Positions 5,839-34,782 of a DNA stretch of 64,000 bases are shown here, piece by piece. Position 1 is the first letter of the stretch. Every line of letters begins with the position of its first letter. Origin of the DNA: Streptomyces sp. CB01373 (GTDB taxonomy: Bacteria; Actinomycetota; Actinomycetes; Streptomycetales; Streptomycetaceae). The notes under the pieces are model-generated. The model saw only the letters and a list, made by a program, of their open reading frames with translations. It was not told where the DNA came from and made no database searches. The DNA lies in the NCBI RefSeq assembly GCF_002803075.1, contig NZ_NNBK01000004.1, positions 186,001 to 250,000 on the forward strand, written 5' to 3'. The position numbers and the translations under genes are program-made.

Positions 5839-6702
5839 ATGGCCCCCGCCACCCCTGACCTGATCTCCCCCCGCTCGCCCCGCGTCTCGGCAGCGCGGCG
5901 GCTGGCCAAGCGGAACTTCCGGGGCAAGGAGCGGCTGTTCCTCGCGGAGGGGCCGCAGGCCGTTCGGGAGGCGGCGGCGCACCGGGCCGGCGACACGCCC
6001 ACCCTCGTCGAACTGTTCGCCACGGTCGAGGCCGCCGAACGGTACGCCGACATCGTGGGCGAGGCCCGTGCCGCGGGAGCCCGGATCCACCTCGCCGCCG
6101 ACGACGTCATCGCCGACATCTCCACCACCGTCACCCCGCAGGGACTCGTCGGCGTCTGCCGGTTCCTCGACACCCCCTTCGAGGACATCGTCGCGGCCCG
6201 CCCGAAGCTCGTCGCCGTCCTCGCCCATGTGCGCGACCCCGGAAACGCCGGCACCGTCCTGCGCTGCGCCGACGCCGCCGGAGCCGAGGCGGTCGTCCTC
6301 ACGGACGCCTCCGTCGACCTCTACAACCCCAAGGCCGTCCGGGCCTCCGTCGGCTCCCTGTTCCACCTGCCCGTGGCCGTCGGCGTCCCCGTCGAGCGGG
6401 CCGTCGCCGCGCTCAGGGACGCCGGGGTGCGCATCCTCGCCGCCGACGGCGCGGGCGAGGACGACCTGGACGACGAGCTCGACCACGGCACCATGGGCGG
6501 CCCCACCGCCTGGGTGTTCGGCAACGAGGCCTGGGGCCTGCCGGAGGACACCCGCGCCCTCGCCGACGCCGTCGTACGGGTCCCGATCCACGGAAAGGCC
6601 GAGAGCCTGAACCTCGCGACCGCCGCCGCCGTATGTCTGTACGCGTCGGCCCGTGCGCAGCGCGGCTCCGGAGGATGCCGCTCCACCACCCGCAACCAGT
6701 AG
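5839..6702 (+). CDS. TrmH/SpoU-family RNA 2'-O-methyltransferase
   Basis: 287 residues from ATG 5839, chosen because GAAGGTGA lies 8 bases upstream; GTG 5827 is possible. The N-terminal substrate-binding domain (about 1-110) is followed by the SPOUT catalytic domain. SPOUT motif 1 is NAGTVLRCADAAGA, motif 2 is VFGNEAWGLP and motif 3 is PIHGKAESLNLATAAAV. These make the SAM-binding trefoil knot. By family, the enzyme methylates a ribose 2'-OH in 23S rRNA or tRNA; the exact nucleotide cannot be read from sequence. It lies between ribosomal protein genes and pheST, with its own short upstream region. Confidence 0.92.
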   Translation: MAPATPDLISPRSPRVSAARRLAKRNFRGKERLFLAEGPQAVREAAAHRAGDTPTLVELFATVEAAERYADIVGEARAAGARIHLAADDVIADISTTVTPQGLVGVCRFLDTPFEDIVAARPKLVAVLAHVRDPGNAGTVLRCADAAGAEAVVLTDASVDLYNPKAVRASVGSLFHLPVAVGVPVERAVAALRDAGVRILAADGAGEDDLDDELDHGTMGGPTAWVFGNEAWGLPEDTRALADAVVRVPIHGKAESLNLATAAAVCLYASARAQRGSGGCRSTTRNQ

Positions 6703-24925: not shown

Positions 24926-25726
24926 TCAGCCGAGACGGGCGGCGAGGCCGTGCGTGCACCTGACCTCGTCGCCCGCCGTGATCAGCAGCGCCTCCACGTC
25001 CGGCAGCGACTCCAGCCAGGCCAGGCCCTCGCGGGAGCCCATGGCGAACGCGGCCGTCGCCCAGCAGTCCGCCCAGGTCAGGCTAGGGGCGACCACGGTG
25101 ACCGCGACCAGGTCGGTGACCGCCGACCTGCCGGTGCGCGGATCGACGATGTGCGCACCGCGCTCGGCCGTGCCCGACGTCGCCACCGCCAGCTCGCTGG
25201 TGCCCGCGGCGGAGACCACCGCCGCGAGTCCACCGGGGCGCAGCGGGTCCGAGACACCCACGCGCCACGGCCGGTGCGCCTCGGGCGAGCCGAGCAACTG
25301 CACGTCCCCGCCGCCGTTGACGCTGACCCCGCTCACCCCCGCCGCCGCGATCCGCCGGGCGGCCCGTTCGGCGGCCCAGCCCTTGACGATCCCGGTCGGA
25401 TCCAGGCTGCCCTCGTAGCGCAGGCTGAACCAGCCCTCGCTGACGCGTTCGGCCTCGGCGCCCAGTTCGAGCACCTCGGCGACGTCGGGGTCGCACTCCG
25501 CGACGGTGAGCTCGCCGCGCGCCAGGCGGGAGAGCTGGCTGTCGTCGCGGTAGGTGCTGAACACCTCGTCGGCGCGGTGCAGTTCGGCGACCGCCTCGTC
25601 CAGTGCCGCCGCCACCGCGTCGGACCGGCCGCCGCGTACGTCGAAGGAGAAGACGGTCCCCATGACCTCCTCCGCGTGCCGCACGGCGGCGGGACTCCCG
25701 GCCGGCCCGGACGCGGCCTCAGCCAC
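24926..25726 (-). CDS. FAD:protein FMN transferase (ApbE family)
   Basis: 266 residues from GTG 25726, overlapping the stop of the preceding FMN-binding gene by 8 bases. Family motifs are MGTVFSFDV, DPTGIVKGWAAE, VNGGGDVQL and the metal/FAD site HIVDPRTGRS. ApbE attaches FMN covalently to the Thr of a D-(S/T)-GAT-type motif on exported flavoproteins, and such motifs occur in both FMN-binding proteins of this cluster. There is no signal peptide or lipobox at the N-terminus, unlike many ApbE proteins. Either the start is wrong or flavinylation occurs before export. It is the last gene of the apparent five-gene electron-transfer operon. Confidence 0.92.
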   Translation of the reverse strand: MAEAASGPAGSPAAVRHAEEVMGTVFSFDVRGGRSDAVAAALDEAVAELHRADEVFSTYRDDSQLSRLARGELTVAECDPDVAEVLELGAEAERVSEGWFSLRYEGSLDPTGIVKGWAAERAARRIAAAGVSGVSVNGGGDVQLLGSPEAHRPWRVGVSDPLRPGGLAAVVSAAGTSELAVATSGTAERGAHIVDPRTGRSAVTDLVAVTVVAPSLTWADCWATAAFAMGSREGLAWLESLPDVEALLITAGDEVRCTHGLAARLG

Positions 25727-26555
25727 CGGCCTTGTCCAGTGCCGACTGGAGCGACTTCTTGTAGCCGCCGCTGGTGTACGTGGCTCCGGAGACGGTGTCG
25801 ATGTTCGCGCTCTGCGCGGTCACGGCCTCCTGGTTGAGCTTGGGCACGGCCAGTTCGCTCTTCTGGCCGCTGAGCCCGCCCTGCGGTGCCTGTACGGCCT
25901 CGGCCTTGGTGATCCTGCCGTCGGTGACCGTGATCCGGACCTGCACCGGGCCGTAATCGGTCTGGGCGGTCTCGCCCGTGACGGTACGGGCCTGGGCGGC
26001 TCCCGAACCGGCGGCCCCCGAGGAGGACGAACCTGACGGCGCACCGGACGAGGAACCGGACGGCGCGCCGGAGGACGAGCCGGACGGCGCACCGCTCGCC
26101 GTCATCCTGTCCAGTGCCGACTGGAGCGACTTCTTGTAGCCGCCGCTGGTGTACGTGGCTCCGGAGACGGTGTCGATGTTCGCGCTCTGCGCGGTCACGG
26201 CCTCCTGGTTGAGCTTGGGCACGGCCAGTTCGCTCTTCTGGCCGCTGACCCCGCCCTGCGGCGCCCGCACGGCCTCGGCCTTGGTGATCCTGCCGTCGCT
26301 GACGGTCAGCCGTACCTGCACGTCGCCGTACTCGGTCCGGGCCACGTCGCCCGTGACGGACTGCGTGCCCGTCCGCTGTGCGCCGCTGCCGCCCTGCGGT
26401 GCCTCCTGGGCCGCCGCGGTCTGCTGCGGCGCCGCGCCGGCCGCCGAGGCGGAGGCGGGGTCCGAGGCCGGCTTCAGTGACAGCAGCAGCACGATGCCGG
26501 ACACGGTCGCGGCGCCGGCCAGCACGGCACGTCGGATGGGATGGCTCTTCCTCAT
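25719..26555 (-). CDS. Exported protein with two FMN-binding (flavinylation) domains
   Basis: 278 residues. An RR-containing N-terminal hydrophobic segment (about 8-28) serves as signal anchor. Two FMN_bind domains follow (about 65-150 and 190-276), each ending in DTVSGATYTSGGYKKSLQSALD. The expected flavinylated threonines are Thr134 and Thr259. The linker between them is three Gly-Ala-Pro-Ser-Gly-Ser-Ser repeats. The domain 3' halves are identical over 140 bp, a recent duplication. In the family, FMN attached to this Thr carries electrons outside the membrane. The gene sits between the first ferric-reductase gene and apbE. Confidence 0.92.
   Translation of the reverse strand: MRKSHPIRRAVLAGAATVSGIVLLLSLKPASDPASASAAGAAPQQTAAAQEAPQGGSGAQRTGTQSVTGDVARTEYGDVQVRLTVSDGRITKAEAVRAPQGGVSGQKSELAVPKLNQEAVTAQSANIDTVSGATYTSGGYKKSLQSALDRMTASGAPSGSSSGAPSGSSSGAPSGSSSSGAAGSGAAQARTVTGETAQTDYGPVQVRITVTDGRITKAEAVQAPQGGLSGQKSELAVPKLNQEAVTAQSANIDTVSGATYTSGGYKKSLQSALDKAGG
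25734..25873. repeat. 140-bp perfect direct repeat, proximal copy (FMN domain 2)
   Basis: Identical base for base to 26109-26248, 375 bp away. It covers the flavinylation motif and flanking helix of each FMN-binding domain. Confidence 0.95.
26109..26248. repeat. 140-bp perfect direct repeat, distal copy (FMN domain 1)
   Basis: Partner of 25734-25873. Synonymous positions are identical too, so the match reflects recent duplication or gene conversion rather than protein-level selection. Confidence 0.95.
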
Positions 26556-26628
26556 CGCCGATGAGCTCCTGAATTCCGTGAGTCCCGTAAGTCCTGTGGT
26601 GTCCGCGGACGTTCCGCGGGCCCGTCGC

Positions 26629-28011
26629 TCACATCTCGAACGACTCGTGATGGATACGGCGGGCGGGGACTCCCGCGCCGCGCAGTGCCTCGTACACCGA
26701 CTGCGCGAACCCGGGCGGGCCGCACATGAAGACGTCGTGGCGGTCGATGTCGGCGATCTTGCGGCGCAGCGACTCGGCGGAGATGTCGGGGCGTTCCCCG
26801 TCCGGGCTGTTCACCGCGTACATCAGCCGGGCGCCGCGCTCGTCGGCGATCTTCGCCAACTCGCCCCACAGGGCCAGCTCCTGGGTGCTGTTGGCCCGGT
26901 ACAGCAGGGTGATGTCACCGGCCGCGCCGGGCAGCGTCTCGAACAGCGCCCGCATCGGCGTGATGCCCACCCCGCCCGCCACCAGCAGCACCTTGCCGCG
27001 GCTGCGCCGGGACGCGGTGAGCGCGCCGTACGGTCCCTCCGCCCACACCCGGGTGCCGGGGGTGAGTTCGCGCAGCCCGGCGCTGTGGTCGCCGATCGCC
27101 TTGACGGTGATGCGCAGCAGGCCGGGGCGGGGCGCCGCCGACAGCGAGTACGGGTGGGAGGAGAACCGCATGCCCGGCGCCAGGAACCGCCAGCGGAAGA
27201 ACTGCCCGGCCTCCGCGCCCATCCGGTGCAGCTTGTGGCCGGCGATCAGCACCGACACGATGCCCGGCGCCTCCTCGATGACCGCCTCCACCCGCATGCG
27301 GTGGCGCAGGTTCAGCCGGATCGGGGTGATGATCCGGTACCAGAGCACCAGCGCGGTCACCACGCCGTACAGGCCGTACCAGGAGGTCCTGGCGACCGGC
27401 TCCACGGCGAAGTCGTTGCCGGTGGTGATCTGGTGCCAGAACGTCAGGAACACCGCGGCGTAGGTGAACAGGTGCACGTGGTACCACGTGTCGTACGGCA
27501 TCCGGCGGCGCACCGGGCCGATCGAGACCAGTCCGATGACCACCAGCAGACCGGTGCCGATCGCGGCCTTGCCCATGTCGGGCAGCTGCTCCACGGACTC
27601 CACGGTCTGCCCCACGATGTCGCCGAGGGACTTGCCGCCGAGCAGCGCGTACCCCCACATGGTGAGGAAGACGTGCGCGAGGACCAGGCAGAGCGTGTAC
27701 CGGCCGGTCATGGCGTGCCAGCGCGCGACCCGGTCGGAGCCCACCCGCCGCTCCAGGGCGGGCACCCGCGCCATCTGGAGCACGACCAGCGCCATCAGGT
27801 AACCGGCGAGCAGGCCGGTGATCCGGCCCGCGTTCAGTACCCTCCCGGCGGTGCCGTCGATGGACGGGGTGTTCGTCCACCACAGCCAGATGACGCCGGC
27901 CGCGCCCGCCCAGACGGCGGCCAGCAGCAGGACGGCGGGGGAGCGGCGCGGCCGGATGCGGCGCATCGTCTGGCGCCGGGCGGCGCGGCCGCCTGCGAGC
28001 GTGGTGGTCAC
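26629..28011 (-). CDS. Ferric-reductase-like flavocytochrome (FAD/NAD oxidoreductase with heme transmembrane domain)
   Basis: 460 residues from GTG 28011, GGAGG upstream. Six or more transmembrane helices (about 25-225) carry candidate heme-ligating histidines: WHAMTGRY, LAHVFLTM and YHVHLFTYAAVFLTFWHQ. The cytoplasmic FNR-like part has an FAD-binding PYSLS motif, GEPYG-like WAEGPYG, and an NAD-binding stretch LVAGGVGITPMRALFE, and ends with CGPPGFAQ and a conserved ESFEM tail. It would pass NAD(P)H electrons through FAD and heme to the outer face. It is paired with the two-domain FMN protein 73 bases downstream. A close paralogue lies at 28560-29912. Confidence 0.9.
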   Translation of the reverse strand: MTTTLAGGRAARRQTMRRIRPRRSPAVLLLAAVWAGAAGVIWLWWTNTPSIDGTAGRVLNAGRITGLLAGYLMALVVLQMARVPALERRVGSDRVARWHAMTGRYTLCLVLAHVFLTMWGYALLGGKSLGDIVGQTVESVEQLPDMGKAAIGTGLLVVIGLVSIGPVRRRMPYDTWYHVHLFTYAAVFLTFWHQITTGNDFAVEPVARTSWYGLYGVVTALVLWYRIITPIRLNLRHRMRVEAVIEEAPGIVSVLIAGHKLHRMGAEAGQFFRWRFLAPGMRFSSHPYSLSAAPRPGLLRITVKAIGDHSAGLRELTPGTRVWAEGPYGALTASRRSRGKVLLVAGGVGITPMRALFETLPGAAGDITLLYRANSTQELALWGELAKIADERGARLMYAVNSPDGERPDISAESLRRKIADIDRHDVFMCGPPGFAQSVYEALRGAGVPARRIHHESFEM

Positions 28012-28084
28012 GGTTCCTCCGTGGACGGAATCAAGGGGGGCATGGTCCCTTGGCCCTGGAATACGTGCCACGACGGCCCCGCGT

Positions 28085-28552
28085 TCAGCGTCCGGACGAG
28101 GTTCGGCGCCCGGCCGTGTCCAGCGCGGACTGGAGCGAGCGGCGGTATCCGTCACTGGTGTACGTCGCCCCCGAGACGGTGTCGATGTCCGCGCTCTGCG
28201 CCGTCAGCGCCTCCCCGCGCAGCCGCGGGATGGCGTAGCCGCTGATCTCACGGTCCCGGGAGTTGCCGGAGGGCCGGGCGAGCGCGGTCACGTCGGTGAT
28301 CCGGCCGTCGACGAGCGTGACCCGCACCTGGACCGGACCCCACCGGGTCCGCACCGTCTCACCGGTGACGGCCCTCGTACCGCCGGCCGCGCCGGACGAG
28401 CTCGAACCGCCGGACGGGGCCGGCGCGGGGTCCGCGGCGATCCGCGGCGGCGTGTGCGGCTTGAGCGACAGCAGCATCACCAGCCCGGAGACGGTGGCGG
28501 CGCCCGCCAGCACGACGCGGCGCAGCGGACGGTTCTTCCTCAACGCGTGCAA
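28085..28552 (-). CDS. Exported single-domain FMN-binding (flavinylation) protein
   Basis: 155 residues if started at TTG 28552, supported by a GAGG five bases upstream. The homologous start of its sister gene corresponds instead to TTG 28543, so the first three residues are uncertain. A basic N-terminus and hydrophobic segment (about 11-30) anchor it. After a Pro/Ser linker there is one FMN_bind domain with IDTVSGATYTSDG, flavinylation Thr130. It lacks the QKSELAVPKLNQ stretch exactly conserved in the sister and has RDREISGYAIPRLRG instead. It lies 7 bases after the second ferric reductase. Confidence 0.88.
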   Translation of the reverse strand: MHALRKNRPLRRVVLAGAATVSGLVMLLSLKPHTPPRIAADPAPAPSGGSSSSGAAGGTRAVTGETVRTRWGPVQVRVTLVDGRITDVTALARPSGNSRDREISGYAIPRLRGEALTAQSADIDTVSGATYTSDGYRRSLQSALDTAGRRTSSGR

Positions 28553-28559
28553 CGGGGCC

Positions 28560-29912
28560 TCACAGTTCGAACGACTCGTGGTGGATACGGCGGTCCGGCA
28601 CCCCGGCGGCGCGCAGCACCTCGTACACGTCCCGGGCGAAGGCGTGCGGGCCGCAGATGTAGACGTCGTGGCCGGCCAGGCCGGAGACGGCCGCGCGCAG
28701 TGACTCCGGGGTGAGGCGGGGGCGTTCGCCGCGCGGGCCGTTGAGCGCGTACAGCACCCGGCCGCCGCGCCACCGCGCTATCGCCTCCAACTCGCCGCCC
28801 AGGGCCAGGTCCTCGGCCGTGCGCGCCCGGTACAGCAGGGTGACGTCGCCGGGCAGCGTCTCGAACAGGGCGCGCAGCGGCGTGATGCCGACCCCGGCGG
28901 CGATCAGCAGGGACCGGTGCGAGGTGCGCCGGTCGGCGGTCATCGCCCCGTAGGGACCCTCCGCCCACACCCGGGTGCCCGGCCGCAGCAGCGGCACGGC
29001 CGCGCTGTGGTCGCCGAGGGCCTTCACCGTGATGCGCAGCAGGCCCGGACGGGGCGGAGCCGACAGGGAGTACGGCGTCGAGGTCCAGCCCATGCCCTCG
29101 GCGAGGAACCGCCAGCGGAAGAACTGGCCCGGCCGCGCGCCCAGTTCGTCCAGCCGGTGGCCGCGCACGACGACGGAGTACACGCCCGGCGCCTCCTTGT
29201 GCACCGCCTCGACGCGCATCCCGTGGCGCAGGTTGAGCCGCACCGGGACCAGGATCCGGAACCACACCACCAGGGCCGCGACGCCCAGGTACAGCGCGTA
29301 CCAGAAGGCCGTGGCCAGGGCGTGGCCGGTGAACTCGGAGCCCAGCGCCACCTGGTGGCCGAAGGCCAGGAACACGGCGGCGTAGGTGAGCAGGTGCGTG
29401 TAGTACCAGAACTCGTGGCTGGTCCGGCGGCGCACCGCGCGCGCCGAGGTGACACCGACCGCGAACAGGATCACGGTCCCGGCGCCGGCCTTCAGCATCT
29501 CCGGGTAGTCCAGCACCACCGTGACCGCCTCGCGCAGGACGGAGGAGCCGTCCTGCGCGGCGTACCCGGCGAGGATCAGCACCACGTGCACGACCAGCAG
29601 GCACACCGTGTAGCGGCCGGCCATCGCGTGCCAGCGCGCCACCCGGTCCGAGCCGATCCGGCGCTCCAGCAGCGGCACCCGCGCCATCAGGCCCACCAGC
29701 ACCGCGCACGCGTACCCGCACAGCAGGCCGGCGATCCGTCCGGCGCCGGTCAGCAGGCCCGCCGTCCCCACGACGGAGTCCGTGTCCTGCCACCACAGGA
29801 GGAGCACCGCGGCGGCTCCCGCCCACAGCAGCGCCAGCACCGCGCCCGCGGGGGAGCGCCGGCGCGCCACCGGCACCGGCGGTGCCGCCCGCCGCTCGTA
29901 CACCGTGGTCAT
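28560..29912 (-). CDS. Ferric-reductase-like flavocytochrome, second copy
   Basis: 450 residues from ATG 29912, with GGGAG upstream. It has the same architecture as the 26629-28011 gene: an N-terminal membrane domain (WHAMAGRY, VVHVVLILAGY and HLLTYAAVFLAFGHQ as heme-ligand candidates), an FAD domain (TPYSLS), and an NAD domain (LIAAGVGITPLRALFE, CGPHAFARDVYEVL, ending ESFEL). The two proteins are clearly paralogous through most of their length but differ in the extracytoplasmic loops. It is the first gene of the five-gene minus-strand cluster, divergent from the two-component system. Confidence 0.9.
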   Translation of the reverse strand: MTTVYERRAAPPVPVARRRSPAGAVLALLWAGAAAVLLLWWQDTDSVVGTAGLLTGAGRIAGLLCGYACAVLVGLMARVPLLERRIGSDRVARWHAMAGRYTVCLLVVHVVLILAGYAAQDGSSVLREAVTVVLDYPEMLKAGAGTVILFAVGVTSARAVRRRTSHEFWYYTHLLTYAAVFLAFGHQVALGSEFTGHALATAFWYALYLGVAALVVWFRILVPVRLNLRHGMRVEAVHKEAPGVYSVVVRGHRLDELGARPGQFFRWRFLAEGMGWTSTPYSLSAPPRPGLLRITVKALGDHSAAVPLLRPGTRVWAEGPYGAMTADRRTSHRSLLIAAGVGITPLRALFETLPGDVTLLYRARTAEDLALGGELEAIARWRGGRVLYALNGPRGERPRLTPESLRAAVSGLAGHDVYICGPHAFARDVYEVLRAAGVPDRRIHHESFEL

Positions 29913-29962: not shown

Positions 29963-30018
29963 CTCTGAGGCAGCTCTGAGCCGCGGGCGGTGTGGCCCCA
30001 CTCACAGGAAACTCAGAG
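29963..30018. promoter_or_regulatory. CTCTGAG direct repeats in the divergent ferric-reductase/two-component promoter region
   Basis: CTCTGAG occurs at 29963-29969 and 29974-29980, exactly 11 bp apart, and its inverse CTCAGAG at 30012-30018. An 11-bp tandem spacing is typical of OmpR/PhoB-type binding. The sites lie in the 155-bp divergent region and may serve both directions. Confidence 0.55.
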
Positions 30019-30067: not shown

Positions 30068-30817
30068 ATGGACACCTCCCGCCCGAGCCCTCCCGGCCTG
30101 CCCGCCCTCACCCGCCTCGACGGCACCCCCGTGCGCGTCCTCGTCGTCGACGACGACCCCGACCTCGCCGAAGTGCTGTGCGGAGCCCTGCGTTACCAGG
30201 GCTGGGAGGTGCACGCCGCGGGCGACGGGGCCTCGGCCGTCGCCGCGGCCCGCGAGGCGCAGCCGGACGCCGTCGTGCTCGACGTGATGCTCCCGGACAC
30301 CGACGGTTTCGCCGTGCTGCGCGAACTGCACACCGTGCAGCCGGACGTCTGTGTGCTCTTCCTCACGGCGCGGGACGCGGTGGAGGACCGTATCGCGGGG
30401 ATCACCGCGGGCGGCGACGACTACGTGACCAAGCCGTTCAGCCTGGAGGAGGTGGTCGCCCGGCTGCGCGGACTGCTGCGCCGCGCCGGCATGGCCCGGC
30501 AGCCGGCCGACGGCCCGCGGCTGACCGTGGGCGACCTGGCCATGGACGAGGACGCCCGCGAGGTCACCCGGGCCGGAGAGCTGATCGAACTGTCCCCGAC
30601 CGAGTTCGAGCTGCTGCGCTTCCTCATGCACAACCCGCGCCGGGTGCTGAGCAAGGCGCAGATCCTCGACCGTGTGTGGTCCTACGACTTCGGCGGCCGG
30701 GCCCATGTGGTGGAGCTGTACATCTCCTATCTGCGCAAGAAGGTGGACGCCGGACGCGCACCCATGATCCACACGGTGCGCGGGGCCGGGTACGTCCTGA
30801 AGCCGGCGGCACGGTGA
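30068..30817 (+). CDS. OmpR-family response regulator
   Basis: 249 residues, ATG 30068 after GGAGGGG. The receiver domain (about 22-137) has the acidic pocket VVDDDPD, phospho-acceptor Asp72 in LDVMLPD, and Lys in VTKPFS. The C-terminal winged helix (about 150-247) ends LHTVRGAGYVLKP-like IHTVRGAGYVLKPA. Its stop overlaps the GTG of the histidine kinase gene (GTGA). Position beside the electron-transfer cluster and the CTCTGAG repeats suggests it regulates those genes and itself. An N-terminal tail of about 20 residues precedes the receiver. Confidence 0.95.
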   Translation: MDTSRPSPPGLPALTRLDGTPVRVLVVDDDPDLAEVLCGALRYQGWEVHAAGDGASAVAAAREAQPDAVVLDVMLPDTDGFAVLRELHTVQPDVCVLFLTARDAVEDRIAGITAGGDDYVTKPFSLEEVVARLRGLLRRAGMARQPADGPRLTVGDLAMDEDAREVTRAGELIELSPTEFELLRFLMHNPRRVLSKAQILDRVWSYDFGGRAHVVELYISYLRKKVDAGRAPMIHTVRGAGYVLKPAAR

Positions 30818-32358
30818 CCGTGACACGGAGCGGAACGACACCGCGGATACGGCGGCTGCCCCGGCCGCGCACCCTGCGGGCCCGGCTCACCTTCGGCCTG
30901 GTGGTGCTGCTGGCCGTCGCCTGCGCCGCCGTCGGCGTGGCCGCGGTCCTCGAACTGAACGGCTTCCTCACCGGCCGGATCGACCAGCAGCTCCAGCAGA
31001 CCGGGCCGGGCTTCCCGGAGAGCCTGGAGCACGGCACCGCCACGCCGGCCAAGCCCTCCGACCACGACGGCGACGAGCGCGGCGACACCCGCCGCCAGGC
31101 CGCCGGCACCTTCGGCGCCCGGCTCCTCGGCGGCACGGTGACCCACGCCGCCGTCGTCCCCTCCGGGTCCCGCCCCGGTTTCGGCGTCACCCTCACCGCC
31201 GCCGACCGCGGCGCGCTGGCCGCGCTCCCGGTGGACCGCGGCGGACACACCGTGCGCCTGTCCGACCTGGGCGAGTACCGGCTGGCGGCCTGGCCGGGCC
31301 GGGACGGCGACGTGCTGGTCACCGGGCTGCCGATGGCGCCGGTGCGGGCCGCGGTCCACCGGCTCGAACTGGTCGCCGGGACTGTCTCGGGGCTCGCCCT
31401 GGCCGCCGCCGGGGTCGCCGGCGCCCTCTGGGTGCGCTGGTCGCTGCGCCCGCTGACAAGGGTCGCGGAGACCGCCGCCCGGGTCAGCGAGCTGCCGCTC
31501 GCCAGCGGCGAGGTCGCGCTGCCGCCCCGCGCGCCGCGCGCCGACCCGCGCAGCGAGGTCGGGCGGGTCGGCGCCGCCTTCAACCGGATGCTCCACCACG
31601 TCGAGGACGCGCTGACCAAACGGCACGCCAGTGAGGAACGGCTGCGCGGCTTCGCCGCCGACGCCAGCCACGAGCTGCGCACCCCGGTCGCCACGGTGCG
31701 CGGCCACGCCGAACTCGCCCTGCTGCACCCGGGACCGGTGCCGCCCGAGGTCACCCGGGCCCTGGAACGCATCGCCGCCGAGTCCGCTCGCATGGGCGAG
31801 ATGGTCGACGAGATGCTGCTCCTGGCCCGGCTGGACGCCGGGCGCCCCCTGGAGCGCCGCCCGGTCGATTTGACCCGCCTGGTCCTGGATGCGGTGACGG
31901 ACGCCAGGGCGGCGGGTCCGGAGCATCGCTGGACGCTCGAGCTGCCGGAGGAACCGGTGACGGTGACCGGTGACGCCCACCGGCTCCAGCAGGTGCTGGC
32001 CAACCTGCTGGCCAACGCGCGTGCGCACACACCCGCGGGCACCGGGGTGACGGTGTCCCTGGACCTGGAATCCGGAGGTGAGCCGGCCCCGGAGGGAGCC
32101 GCCGTGGCCGTCCTGCGGGTGCACGACGACGGGCCCGGCGTCCCCGAGGAGGTCCAGCCCGGTGTCTTCGAGCGCTTCACCCGGGCCGACCGCCGCCGCA
32201 CCGACTCCTTCGGCGGCGCCGGGGCGGGCCTCGGCCTGTCGATCGTGGCGGCCGTGACGGAGGCCCACGGCGGCGGTGTCGGGCTGGACAGCCGCCCCGG
32301 CTCCACGGCCTTCACCGTCCGGCTGCCGGCGGACGGCGGCGGGGTCAGTAACGGCTGA
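30814..32358 (+). CDS. Membrane sensor histidine kinase, cognate of the adjacent OmpR-type regulator
   Basis: 514 residues from GTG 30814. Two transmembrane helices (about 25-48 and 184-207) bracket an extracytoplasmic sensor region with Asp/Glu and His-rich stretches (SDHDGDERGDTRRQ). A HAMP region follows, then HisKA with His286 in DASHELRTPVA, and HATPase with NLLANARAHT, DDGPGVP and GAGLGLSIVAA. It likely senses something at the outer membrane face. Its last 14 bases overlap the end of the convergent L,D-transpeptidase gene. Confidence 0.94.
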   Translation: MTVTRSGTTPRIRRLPRPRTLRARLTFGLVVLLAVACAAVGVAAVLELNGFLTGRIDQQLQQTGPGFPESLEHGTATPAKPSDHDGDERGDTRRQAAGTFGARLLGGTVTHAAVVPSGSRPGFGVTLTAADRGALAALPVDRGGHTVRLSDLGEYRLAAWPGRDGDVLVTGLPMAPVRAAVHRLELVAGTVSGLALAAAGVAGALWVRWSLRPLTRVAETAARVSELPLASGEVALPPRAPRADPRSEVGRVGAAFNRMLHHVEDALTKRHASEERLRGFAADASHELRTPVATVRGHAELALLHPGPVPPEVTRALERIAAESARMGEMVDEMLLLARLDAGRPLERRPVDLTRLVLDAVTDARAAGPEHRWTLELPEEPVTVTGDAHRLQQVLANLLANARAHTPAGTGVTVSLDLESGGEPAPEGAAVAVLRVHDDGPGVPEEVQPGVFERFTRADRRRTDSFGGAGAGLGLSIVAAVTEAHGGGVGLDSRPGSTAFTVRLPADGGGVSNG

Positions 32359-33751: not shown

Positions 33752-34621
33752 TCACTTGGTGAGGGTGCAGGCGGCCAGGGAGTCCAGTCCCTGCGGCTTG
33801 GCCGCGGTACGTCCGATGGAGATGGCGATCCGGTTGATGGTGGCCACGCGCTTGTCCTTGAGCGGGCCGAGGATGGCGTTCTGCACGAAGTCGGGCCCGC
33901 CCTGGCCGGCGGTGTCGACCAGGCGCTTGTCGGCCTCCTGGATCTGGGTGTCCAGCAGAGCGAGGTTGCGGTCGATCTCGGCCTGGGCGGAGGCGGGGAC
34001 CGCGGGGAGCTGCGACCTCACGTCCGGGCAGGTGATGGTTCCCGCCGCCGTGCCGGCGCCGGCGTTGCCCGTGTTGCCGCCTGTGTTACCGGCGTTGCCT
34101 GTGTTGCTGTTGTTTCCTGTCGCCGCGCCCGCCGCGTTGCCGTCGTTGCCGCCGACGGTGCCCGTCACGCCGCCCTGGTTCAGGGTGCAGGGCGCGAGCG
34201 CGTCCAGGCCCTGCGGCCTGGCCGCCGTACGGCCGATCGCCGTGGCCATCCGGTTGATGGTGGCCACGCGCTTGTCCTTGAGCGGGCCGAGGATGGCGTT
34301 CTGCACGAAGTCGGGCCCGCCCTGGCCGACGGTGTCGACCAGGCGCTTGTCGGCCTCCTGGATCTGGGTGTCCAGCAGGGCGAGGTTGCGGTCGATCTCG
34401 GCCTGGGCGGAGGCGGGGACCGCGGGGAGCTGCGACCTCACGTCCGGGCAGGTGATCGTGCCGGGGCTCGCCAGGGTCCGGGCGTTCTGGGCGCCGCCCT
34501 GCCCGGACGTCTCCCCGGCCAGCGCGGAACCGGCGATGACCGCGCCGGAGAGCACCACTGCGGCCGCGCCGCCGATGAACGCGACGCGGCGCTTGTCGTA
34601 CTTCGGAAGAGCCCTGGACAT
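33752..34621 (-). CDS. Exported protein built from two near-identical repeats, unknown function
   Basis: 289 residues. The N-terminal segment (about 12-36) is a signal peptide ending SALAGE. Two domains of about 95 residues follow, joined by a Gly/Asn/Thr-rich linker. Each begins TITCPDVRSQLPAVPASAQ and ends with a single Cys (APCTLN, AACTLT), so a Cys-Cys bridge per domain is likely. The duplicated DNA differs at only two of about 206 bases. The family is not one I can name; secretion and disulfides point to an extracellular role. It is divergent from argG. Confidence 0.8.
   Translation of the reverse strand: MSRALPKYDKRRVAFIGGAAAVVLSGAVIAGSALAGETSGQGGAQNARTLASPGTITCPDVRSQLPAVPASAQAEIDRNLALLDTQIQEADKRLVDTVGQGGPDFVQNAILGPLKDKRVATINRMATAIGRTAARPQGLDALAPCTLNQGGVTGTVGGNDGNAAGAATGNNSNTGNAGNTGGNTGNAGAGTAAGTITCPDVRSQLPAVPASAQAEIDRNLALLDTQIQEADKRLVDTAGQGGPDFVQNAILGPLKDKRVATINRIAISIGRTAAKPQGLDSLAACTLTK
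33831..34036. repeat. Direct repeat in the exported two-domain gene, proximal copy
   Basis: Matches 34251-34456 (420 bp offset) with two differences in about 206 bases, at the GGC/GAC and AGAG/AGGG positions. Confidence 0.92.
34251..34456. repeat. Direct repeat in the exported two-domain gene, distal copy
   Basis: Partner of 33831-34036. The identity stops abruptly at the Gly/Asn linker on one side and at the domain edge on the other. Confidence 0.92.
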
Positions 34622-34782
34622 GGGGGTGCCTCACTCGGGTCGGGGATGTCGGTCGTGGCAAACGCGGCGCCTGCGTTCGAACGAGAGATACGGGAAAGCG
34701 GTTGCCCTTGTTCAAGGAGTGACGAGGGAATTCTGAAAACACCTTTCGAAACTCCCTGACGCCAGGACACGTCCGCCGGAGA

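Follow-up and report, generated by a model that had tools for sequence, protein, structure and literature searches.

Two reductase and FMN-carrier modules, probably under separate control, with one short signal-less ApbE in a Streptomyces gene cluster

Genes of the locus and conservation of the cluster

The subject of this study is a five-gene cluster in the soil bacterium Streptomyces sp. CB01373 (RefSeq assembly GCF_002803075.1, contig NZ_NNBK01000004.1, positions 186,001 to 250,000; this stretch of 64,000 nucleotides is called the window). It encodes two ferric-reductase-like membrane proteins (FRD1 and FRD2), two flavin mononucleotide (FMN)-binding carriers (FMN1 and FMN2) and one ApbE. 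The operon order is FRD1-FMN1-FRD2-FMN2-apbE, all on the minus strand, and a two-component system (TCS) is divergent from it (Table 1). Domain names are Pfam matches over the curated cut-off. An earlier note on this DNA had described two ferric-reductase-like proteins, each with an exported FMN-binding protein, one ApbE and a divergent TCS; domain scans and coordinates agree with that description, the TCS being an OmpR-type regulator and a kinase. The gene past apbE reads as argR by inspection.

Table 1 Features of the cluster and its surroundings (positions in the window)
Feature	Position	Strand	Remarks
FRD1	29912-28560	minus	PF01794 and PF00175 above curated cut-off
FMN1	28552-28085	minus	TTG start; one PF04205 domain; RPLRRVVLAG signal/anchor; Thr130 (predicted FMN site)
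FRD2	28011-26629	minus	GTG start; PF01794, PF00175; PF08022 just at cut-off (22.1 of 22)
FMN2	26555-25719	minus	HPIRRAVLAG signal/anchor; two PF04205 stretches; Thr134, Thr259 (predicted FMN sites)
ApbE	25726-24926	minus	PF02424; short FAD:protein FMN transferase without hydrophobic N-terminal segment
Response regulator, OmpR/PhoB-type, divergent	30068..30817	plus	PF00072, PF00486
Sensor kinase	30814..32358	plus	HAMP, HisKA, HATPase_c; extracytoplasmic PAS/PDC-like domain (alignment of 32, model)
ECF-sigma-type promoter candidate for FRD2-FMN2-apbE	28062..28087	minus	TGAAC-N17-CGTA, exact match; first bases are the FMN1 stop codon
Direct repeat CTCTGAG-N4-CTCTGAG, operator candidate in divergent promoter	29963..29980	plus	0 mismatches
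Second direct repeat, operator candidate, opposite strand	30001..30018	minus	1 mismatch
Secreted-type protein with two CPDV repeats	33752..34621	minus	Promoter of FRD2 type at 34689-34714

In the genome (completeness 100, 37 contigs), searches at E ≤ 0.001 found three FMN_bind domains, all of them in the cluster, and a single ApbE, also in the cluster. Relatives of FRD2 were collected with tblastn (E ≤ 1e-3), which gave 582 stretches of the genome collection, and the best 80 were kept. By their titles, 79 of these are Streptomyces and one is an 'Actinobacteria bacterium'; because they were selected by FRD2 similarity, close relatives are over-represented. In loci that reach far enough, an FMN2-like frame (divided into two frames in L058) comes after FRD2, and apbE after that. 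The six loci in which apbE is missing are all stretches of at most 7979 bases. Since this arrangement recurs across relatives, the cluster is not a chance assembly: it is a real, conserved system and, as far as the sequence tells, a regulated one. When 150 Streptomyces genomes were sampled evenly, FMN_bind was found in 79 and ApbE in 86. Outside the genus, 60 loci of the same class were drawn from part of the 111 matching genomes among 296 searched. A reductase scoring above 80 bits, an FMN carrier and ApbE occur together in 49/60; in nine the stretch lacks ApbE, and several of these stop at a contig end, while in two the reductase match is only weak.

Two related membrane reductases

The two reductases encoded in the window share 262/439 identical positions (60%). 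In an alignment of 25 proteins (12 FRD2 and 13 FRD1, the FRD1 of the window being left out), His99, His113, His180 and His193 of FRD2 are invariant, and FRD1 of the window carries His at 95, 109, 173 and 186. Four such His residues agree with two b hemes. A structure model of FRD2 has its best fold matches in SpNOX and human NOX2, and contains six helices of at least 19 residues with shorter ones in between; because confidence is low (mean pLDDT 63.8), the model was used for the overall fold only. Judged by family and conserved residues, FRD2 would be a reductase of the NADPH oxidase (NOX) type with a membrane di-heme b part and FAD and NAD(P)H domains, and FRD1 a second such enzyme.

In a quick tree of 123 such reductases, for which the Streptomyces FRD1 and FRD2 rows had been thinned, FRD1 and FRD2 form separate clades inside Streptomyces. 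Two single-reductase Streptomyces loci (L179 and L180) sit beside these clades, and some forks are weakly supported. This placement fits a duplication within the genus.

FMN carriers

The earlier note had predicted three covalent FMN sites, and they coincide exactly with the threonines of SGAT flavinylation motifs: T130 in FMN1, and T134 and T259 in FMN2. Both N-termini look hydrophobic and of the export or anchor type by inspection. All 43 relatives of FMN1 have one FMN_bind domain. Among the FMN2 relatives (three rows containing N being set aside), 57 have two domains, 13 have three, six have one, and one, whose stretch is cut, has none. In 208 domains, the motif before Tyr is SGAT in 179 and SGAS in eight, while 21 are unmatched, some of these being SGATF. 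SGAS replaces SGAT at one site in the FMN2 of L040, L056, L073 and L077. The two repeats of FMN2 in the window are identical to each other at 74/88 amino acids and 236/264 nucleotides, which suggests recent duplication or homogenisation. An FMN2 repeat matches the crystallised domain of SaFMN3 (PDB 8p2a) with 119.8 bits over 88 residues. The carriers of L123 and L137 have Asp/His-rich linkers between the membrane anchor and the FMN domain.

Inheritance of the two halves

Among 66 full-length Streptomyces loci, 37 have the whole set of regulator, kinase, FRD1 and FMN1 beside FRD2 (long loci) and 29 have none of it (short loci); no locus has only a part of this block. The FRD2 half thus occurs without the FRD1 half in 29/66. 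On a quick tree of FRD2 and ApbE with 67 rows, the window included, the long or short state needs at least nine changes, five of them forced by starred branches; shuffled states need 22 on average, and 0/500 shuffles were as low. Therefore, the block of TCS, FRD1 and FMN1 seems to have undergone repeated gain or loss.

Of the non-Streptomyces stretches, 13/60 contain a regulator with 48-82% identity to that of the window (one match is partial), and seven more contain weaker, generic regulators (32-40%). Because a related regulator occurs in these 13 stretches, the link to the TCS looks older than the duplication of the reductases.

Control of the FRD1-FMN1 module

The divergent promoter between the TCS and FRD1 contains CTCTGAG-N4-CTCTGAG once on each strand. 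With one mismatch allowed, these two sites are the only ones in the 7.9 Mb genome, and the reversed-pattern control gave 0. When two mismatches are allowed, 42/42 promoters (41 loci and the window) hold a copy, also when the orientation of 30001..30018 is required. In ten of the 42, the best match for the opposite-strand copy is the first copy itself, and the second copy is unsupported there. At one mismatch, the site is present in 36/37 long loci and in 0/29 short loci. The direct repeats are an operator candidate, to which the response regulator may bind.

The sensor domain of the kinase holds a conserved acidic/His motif (SLEH ... DGDExxD-RR; alignment of 32). Its model has a PAS/PDC-like fold (best Z 8.3, most rows tied), and Foldseek gave no match at E ≤ 0.001. 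The best NCBIfam match of the kinase is the heavy-metal sensor family TIGR01386, with 175.3 of 292.55 bits, below the curated cut-off.

Control of the FRD2-FMN2-apbE module

Ahead of FRD2, GAAC-N17-CGTA was found in 81/81 loci, long and short, with a fixed spacing and a variable spacer; about 0.01 matches are expected per 130-nt stretch. The stricter pattern TGAACRC-N15-CGTAT has five exact matches in the genome and none for the reversed control; when 20 other genomes were scanned, that control gave one match in each of two. Three of the five matches precede FRD2, a protease with an alpha-lytic prodomain and a DUF1996 protein, and the remaining two are without a clear link. The protease and the DUF1996 protein begin in a signal-like manner by inspection. 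The element is a candidate promoter for a sigma factor of the extracytoplasmic function (ECF) type.

Within the window, four sites match TGAAC-N17-CGTA exactly. Besides the one at FRD2, two lie at plus-strand positions 6608 and 24221, of which 24221 falls in the gene that precedes argR, and were taken as chance; the fourth precedes the gene for the secreted CPDV-repeat protein (Table 1). This gene is found in 48/80 loci, 16 of them short, and has the promoter in 23/48, among them every one of the 16 short loci. The remaining 25 stretches start no more than 83 nt from the match and leave the promoter out of view. The CPDV gene is possibly co-regulated with FRD2; we claim no place for it in the electron chain. 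Its product carries two CPDV...NAILGPLK repeats and belongs to no Pfam family, and a longer genomic relative (L223) has DUF1996 and the same ECF-type promoter.

SigU is an indirectly supported candidate for the sigma factor in question, because one paper lists SCO1573 together with secreted proteases in the SigU regulon (PMC6295645). In the same numbering argR is SCO1576 (PMC3293853). The apbE and argR genes are convergent within 400 nt in 47/61 loci that have both. L055 (S. coelicoflavus), however, has 777 nt between the two, and the assignment of SCO1573 to a given gene is therefore unsure.

A short ApbE without a visible export signal

The ApbE of the window matches positions 1-74 and 125-266 of the PF02424 model, and positions 75-124 are unmatched. 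Its catalytic domain is thus not full-length: about 38 residues stand where Treponema pallidum Ftp has about 92. The HIVDP and ADxxAT regions align with Ftp (4xdt), and HxxDP and DxxAT, which we take to hold the catalytic residues, are retained. The ApbEs of such reductase, carrier and ApbE triads (in the window and in L246-L257) form a short subfamily in which about 50 PF02424 positions (75-124) are missing; many genomes that carry them have additional, longer ApbEs.

The protein opens almost directly with the catalytic domain, the upstream frame shows no signal, and the N-terminal signal peptide of extracytosolic lipoprotein ApbEs is absent. We compared ApbEs and carriers over equal stretches ahead of the domain, counting a 15-residue Kyte-Doolittle mean of at least 1.6 as a hydrophobic stretch. 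Within 110 residues, such a stretch was found in 0/48 ApbEs of the class and in 53/63 carriers of the class, many of which have long linkers before the FMN_bind domain. The top score among 74 Streptomyces ApbEs is 1.14, and another 12 ApbEs of this class all stay below the threshold within 100 residues (highest 1.32). Of eight ApbEs outside the class but within the phylum, L228, L233 and L234 score at least 2.5, so the test can see a signal.

The carriers of Streptomyces have a twin arginine in the N-terminal segment in 43/43 FMN1 and 78/80 FMN2 frames (two unmatched). Its codons vary, with three to five per position, and nearby positions alternate between R and K or among K, N and R; other positions are invariant too, for example K3 of FMN2. 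Export by the twin-arginine translocation (Tat) pathway as a rule for the whole family was considered and rejected, since RR occurs in only 35/63 carriers of the class while the ApbEs of the class also lack a signal: Tat is not the general solution. A supporting case comes from another genome of the phylum (G214), in which an FMN_bind protein (L115) begins with a canonical Tat-plus-lipobox sequence, whereas a hydrophobic segment is lacking in L232, the only ApbE found.

Discussion

We propose that the cluster consists of two related export modules with one shared flavin-attaching enzyme, separate control, and flavinylation in the cytosol. We regard this model as a whole as probable, with considerable reserve. 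In it, electrons drawn from cytosolic NAD(P)H would cross the membrane in FRD1 and FRD2, by way of FAD and two b hemes, and would be handed to the membrane-tethered FMN proteins outside, of which FMN1 would bear one flavin and FMN2 two. The reduced flavins may then pass electrons to a diffusible acceptor (a metal, a redox-active small molecule or O2) rather than to a dedicated partner enzyme. FRD2-FMN2-apbE may be the core module on its own ECF-sigma-type promoter, and FRD1-FMN1 an add-on that arose by duplication within Streptomyces and would be switched by the TCS through the direct-repeat operator. ApbE would flavinylate the carriers in the cytosol, and export, perhaps by Tat in Streptomyces, would follow. 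Because the only ApbE of the genome has no visible export signal, attachment of FMN ahead of export is the simplest reading and the most likely one. For a wider statement we can offer a tentative proposal, somewhat short of an even chance: that in Streptomyces, and probably in much of Actinomycetia, a short signal-less ApbE acts inside, that FMN-loaded carriers are exported (by Tat where RR is kept), and that the two modules answer to unrelated signals, a TCS and a SigU-like ECF sigma factor of a secretion regulon. If this were true, it would invert the standard picture of an ApbE that works outside the membrane.

Several observations weigh against these readings. The low confidence of the FRD2 model limits what can be said of the reductase, and we infer from sequence both the binding of the regulator to the repeats and the use of the FRD2 promoter by an ECF sigma factor. 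The outcome of the hydrophobicity test varies with the length of sequence taken: at 60 residues only 13/63 carriers pass (ApbEs 0/48), and at 230 residues 63/63 carriers pass together with two of 48 ApbEs (highest in L143), which we took to be frame beyond the gene start. Four of the eight ApbEs from other classes also have no such segment (at most 1.19), and L235, with 1.73, is doubtful. The carriers of the class divide into 35 RR, 12 KR, 3 RK, 2 KK and 11 other (n=63), and a hydrophobic residue (I/L/V) precedes RR, which departs from the usual Tat motif. Finally, the gap between FMN1 and FRD2 is only 73 nt, so that read-through into FRD2 is possible.

The earlier note had implied another arrangement; the reading of its duplicated reductase-carrier pairing as one chain is weakened. 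If the genes formed one transcript and one continuous path from FRD1 through FMN1 and FRD2 to FMN2, the single strand, the short gaps and the one apbE common to both halves would be expected, and a simple scan found no terminator-like site (nor any sigma-70-type promoter). The TCS, FRD1 and FMN1, however, come and go as a block while FRD2 stays, a promoter-like element is conserved ahead of FRD2 in long and short loci, and each reductase comes complete with NAD(P)H, FAD and heme parts. We thus consider a single chain improbable. The same note had named independent control of the halves as evidence against its own idea, and at the level of sequence this is probably the situation: a TCS with an operator candidate for one half and an ECF-type promoter for the other, which occurs alone in 29/66. 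The cluster is probably two modules under separate control. The site of flavinylation is also disputed by a different account, in which ApbE would reach the outside by some other route and act there as in the best-studied systems. The best-known ApbEs are indeed extracytosolic lipoproteins (PMC12052999), and two ApbE homologues of P. denitrificans are exported by Tat (PMC7660919). Against these stand the 48 triad ApbEs, none with a hydrophobic stretch in 110 residues, and the 12 more of the same class, none above 1.32, compared with at least 2.5 in three of eight from other classes. We consider an external ApbE doubtful, and continue to favour flavinylation in the cytosol.

As to the terminal acceptor, a diffusible substance is favoured over a partner enzyme with low confidence. 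No recurring partner oxidoreductase was found beside the unit in the 60 non-Streptomyces loci, whose flanks extended at most about 4.5 kb to either side. Homologous frames that occur in at least four of these loci fall into seven groups: a regulator (19, generic ones included), kinase frames (19), four antisense-type groups (11, 11, 4 and 4) and one TetR-type-like group (5), named by inspection and regulator comparison rather than by domain search. The scanned neighbours in the window are the TCS, YkuD, PNPOx and a protein without a Pfam family. The operon (FRD, FMN_bind, ApbE) contains no msrP, the search for which was limited to it and the neighbours, the rest of the genome not being searched, and the unit accordingly does not have the composition of MsrPQ. 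If the system were NADPH-oxidase-like, the reduced carriers would pass electrons to O2 and so produce peroxide or superoxide or lower the local O2. Reduced flavins commonly react with O2, so O2 need not be the physiological acceptor, and a NOX works without a flavin tether. In favour of O2 are the nearest folds of the FRD2 model, SpNOX and NOX2, and the reoxidation of SaFMN3 by O2 at 1.2 per second (PMC10339131). We judge this version unlikely. Assimilatory or protective reduction of Fe or Cu is a possible but unconvincing alternative. It agrees with the family of the best NCBIfam match of the kinase, although that match misses its cut-off, with the acidic/His cluster of the sensor, with the Asp/His-rich linkers in L123 and L137, and with CusS among the fold matches (Z 7.5, a range in which unrelated folds also score); elsewhere, VIT1 occurs in 153 MsrQ-like clusters (PMC8238504). 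Neither the five genes nor the identified neighbours include a metal transporter. The operator candidate and the ECF-type promoter are handles on the inducing signal and hence on the acceptor.

Relation to known systems

The basic unit of NOX-like reductase, FMN carrier and ApbE is an already published class, and SaFMN3 is a close relative of FMN2; the impression of the earlier note that the arrangement had no known counterpart is superseded, while its theme of flavin-based extracytosolic electron transfer fits this class. Méheust et al. (2021; PMC8238504) counted 1797 MsrQ-like flavinylation clusters across 1468 genomes, with broad conservation in Actinobacteria, in a survey filtered for signal peptides or lipidation sites. 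As in those clusters, a PF01794 reductase, often with PF00175, adjoins an FMN_bind gene and apbE, and the carriers here bear an extracytosolic-type signal or anchor, judged from their hydrophobic N-termini. The difference is that here two reductase-carrier units share one apbE and are joined by a TCS module and an ECF-type promoter; the excerpts of PMC8238504 mention neither duplication nor control. What this locus adds is the two-module pairing, probably separately controlled, and the combination of a signal-less short ApbE with carriers that have export or anchor segments. A literature search, mostly in sources short of full text, gave nothing on paired modules, on their control, or on cytosolic flavinylation followed by export.

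SaFMN3 of Streptomyces azureus, which was purified and of which one domain was crystallised with covalent FMN, holds covalent Thr-FMN, has a potential of -184 mV and reacts with O2, and its electron donor was called unknown (PMC10339131; PDB 8p2a). It shares with FMN2 the tandem FMN_bind domains, the Thr motif and a predicted N-terminal secretion or transmembrane segment, but has three domains instead of two. We propose FRD2 as the donor at this locus, and thereby a donor for the crystallised multi-flavin protein of Streptomyces. SpNOX and other NOX enzymes likewise join a di-heme membrane part to FAD and NAD(P)H domains in one protein; here, in contrast, adjacent genes encode FMN tethers, which presumably receive the electrons.

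Of wider interest are the site at which ApbE acts and the nature of the two unrelated signals, and the former becomes testable in a group in which such clusters are broadly conserved. The extracellular electron transfer system of Listeria (FmnB, PplA) likewise uses an extracytosolic flavinylated carrier and an ApbE-type transferase, but its transferase is exported and its membrane part is another one (PMC9973259), whereas the present locus has reductases that use NAD(P)H directly and a transferase that lacks a signal. The cytosolic ApbE of Klebsiella resembles the present one in having no signal peptide and acting in the cytosol; its substrate is a soluble fumarate reductase, while the substrates here bear export or anchor segments (PMC12052999). 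In Dehalobacter restrictus, apbE (ftp) lies inside a Tat operon, which is a genetic link between ApbE and Tat, although the authors place flavinylation outside through a lipid-anchored Ftp, following a D. hafniense model (PMC5928378); in the Streptomyces cluster, flavinylation would most likely precede export.

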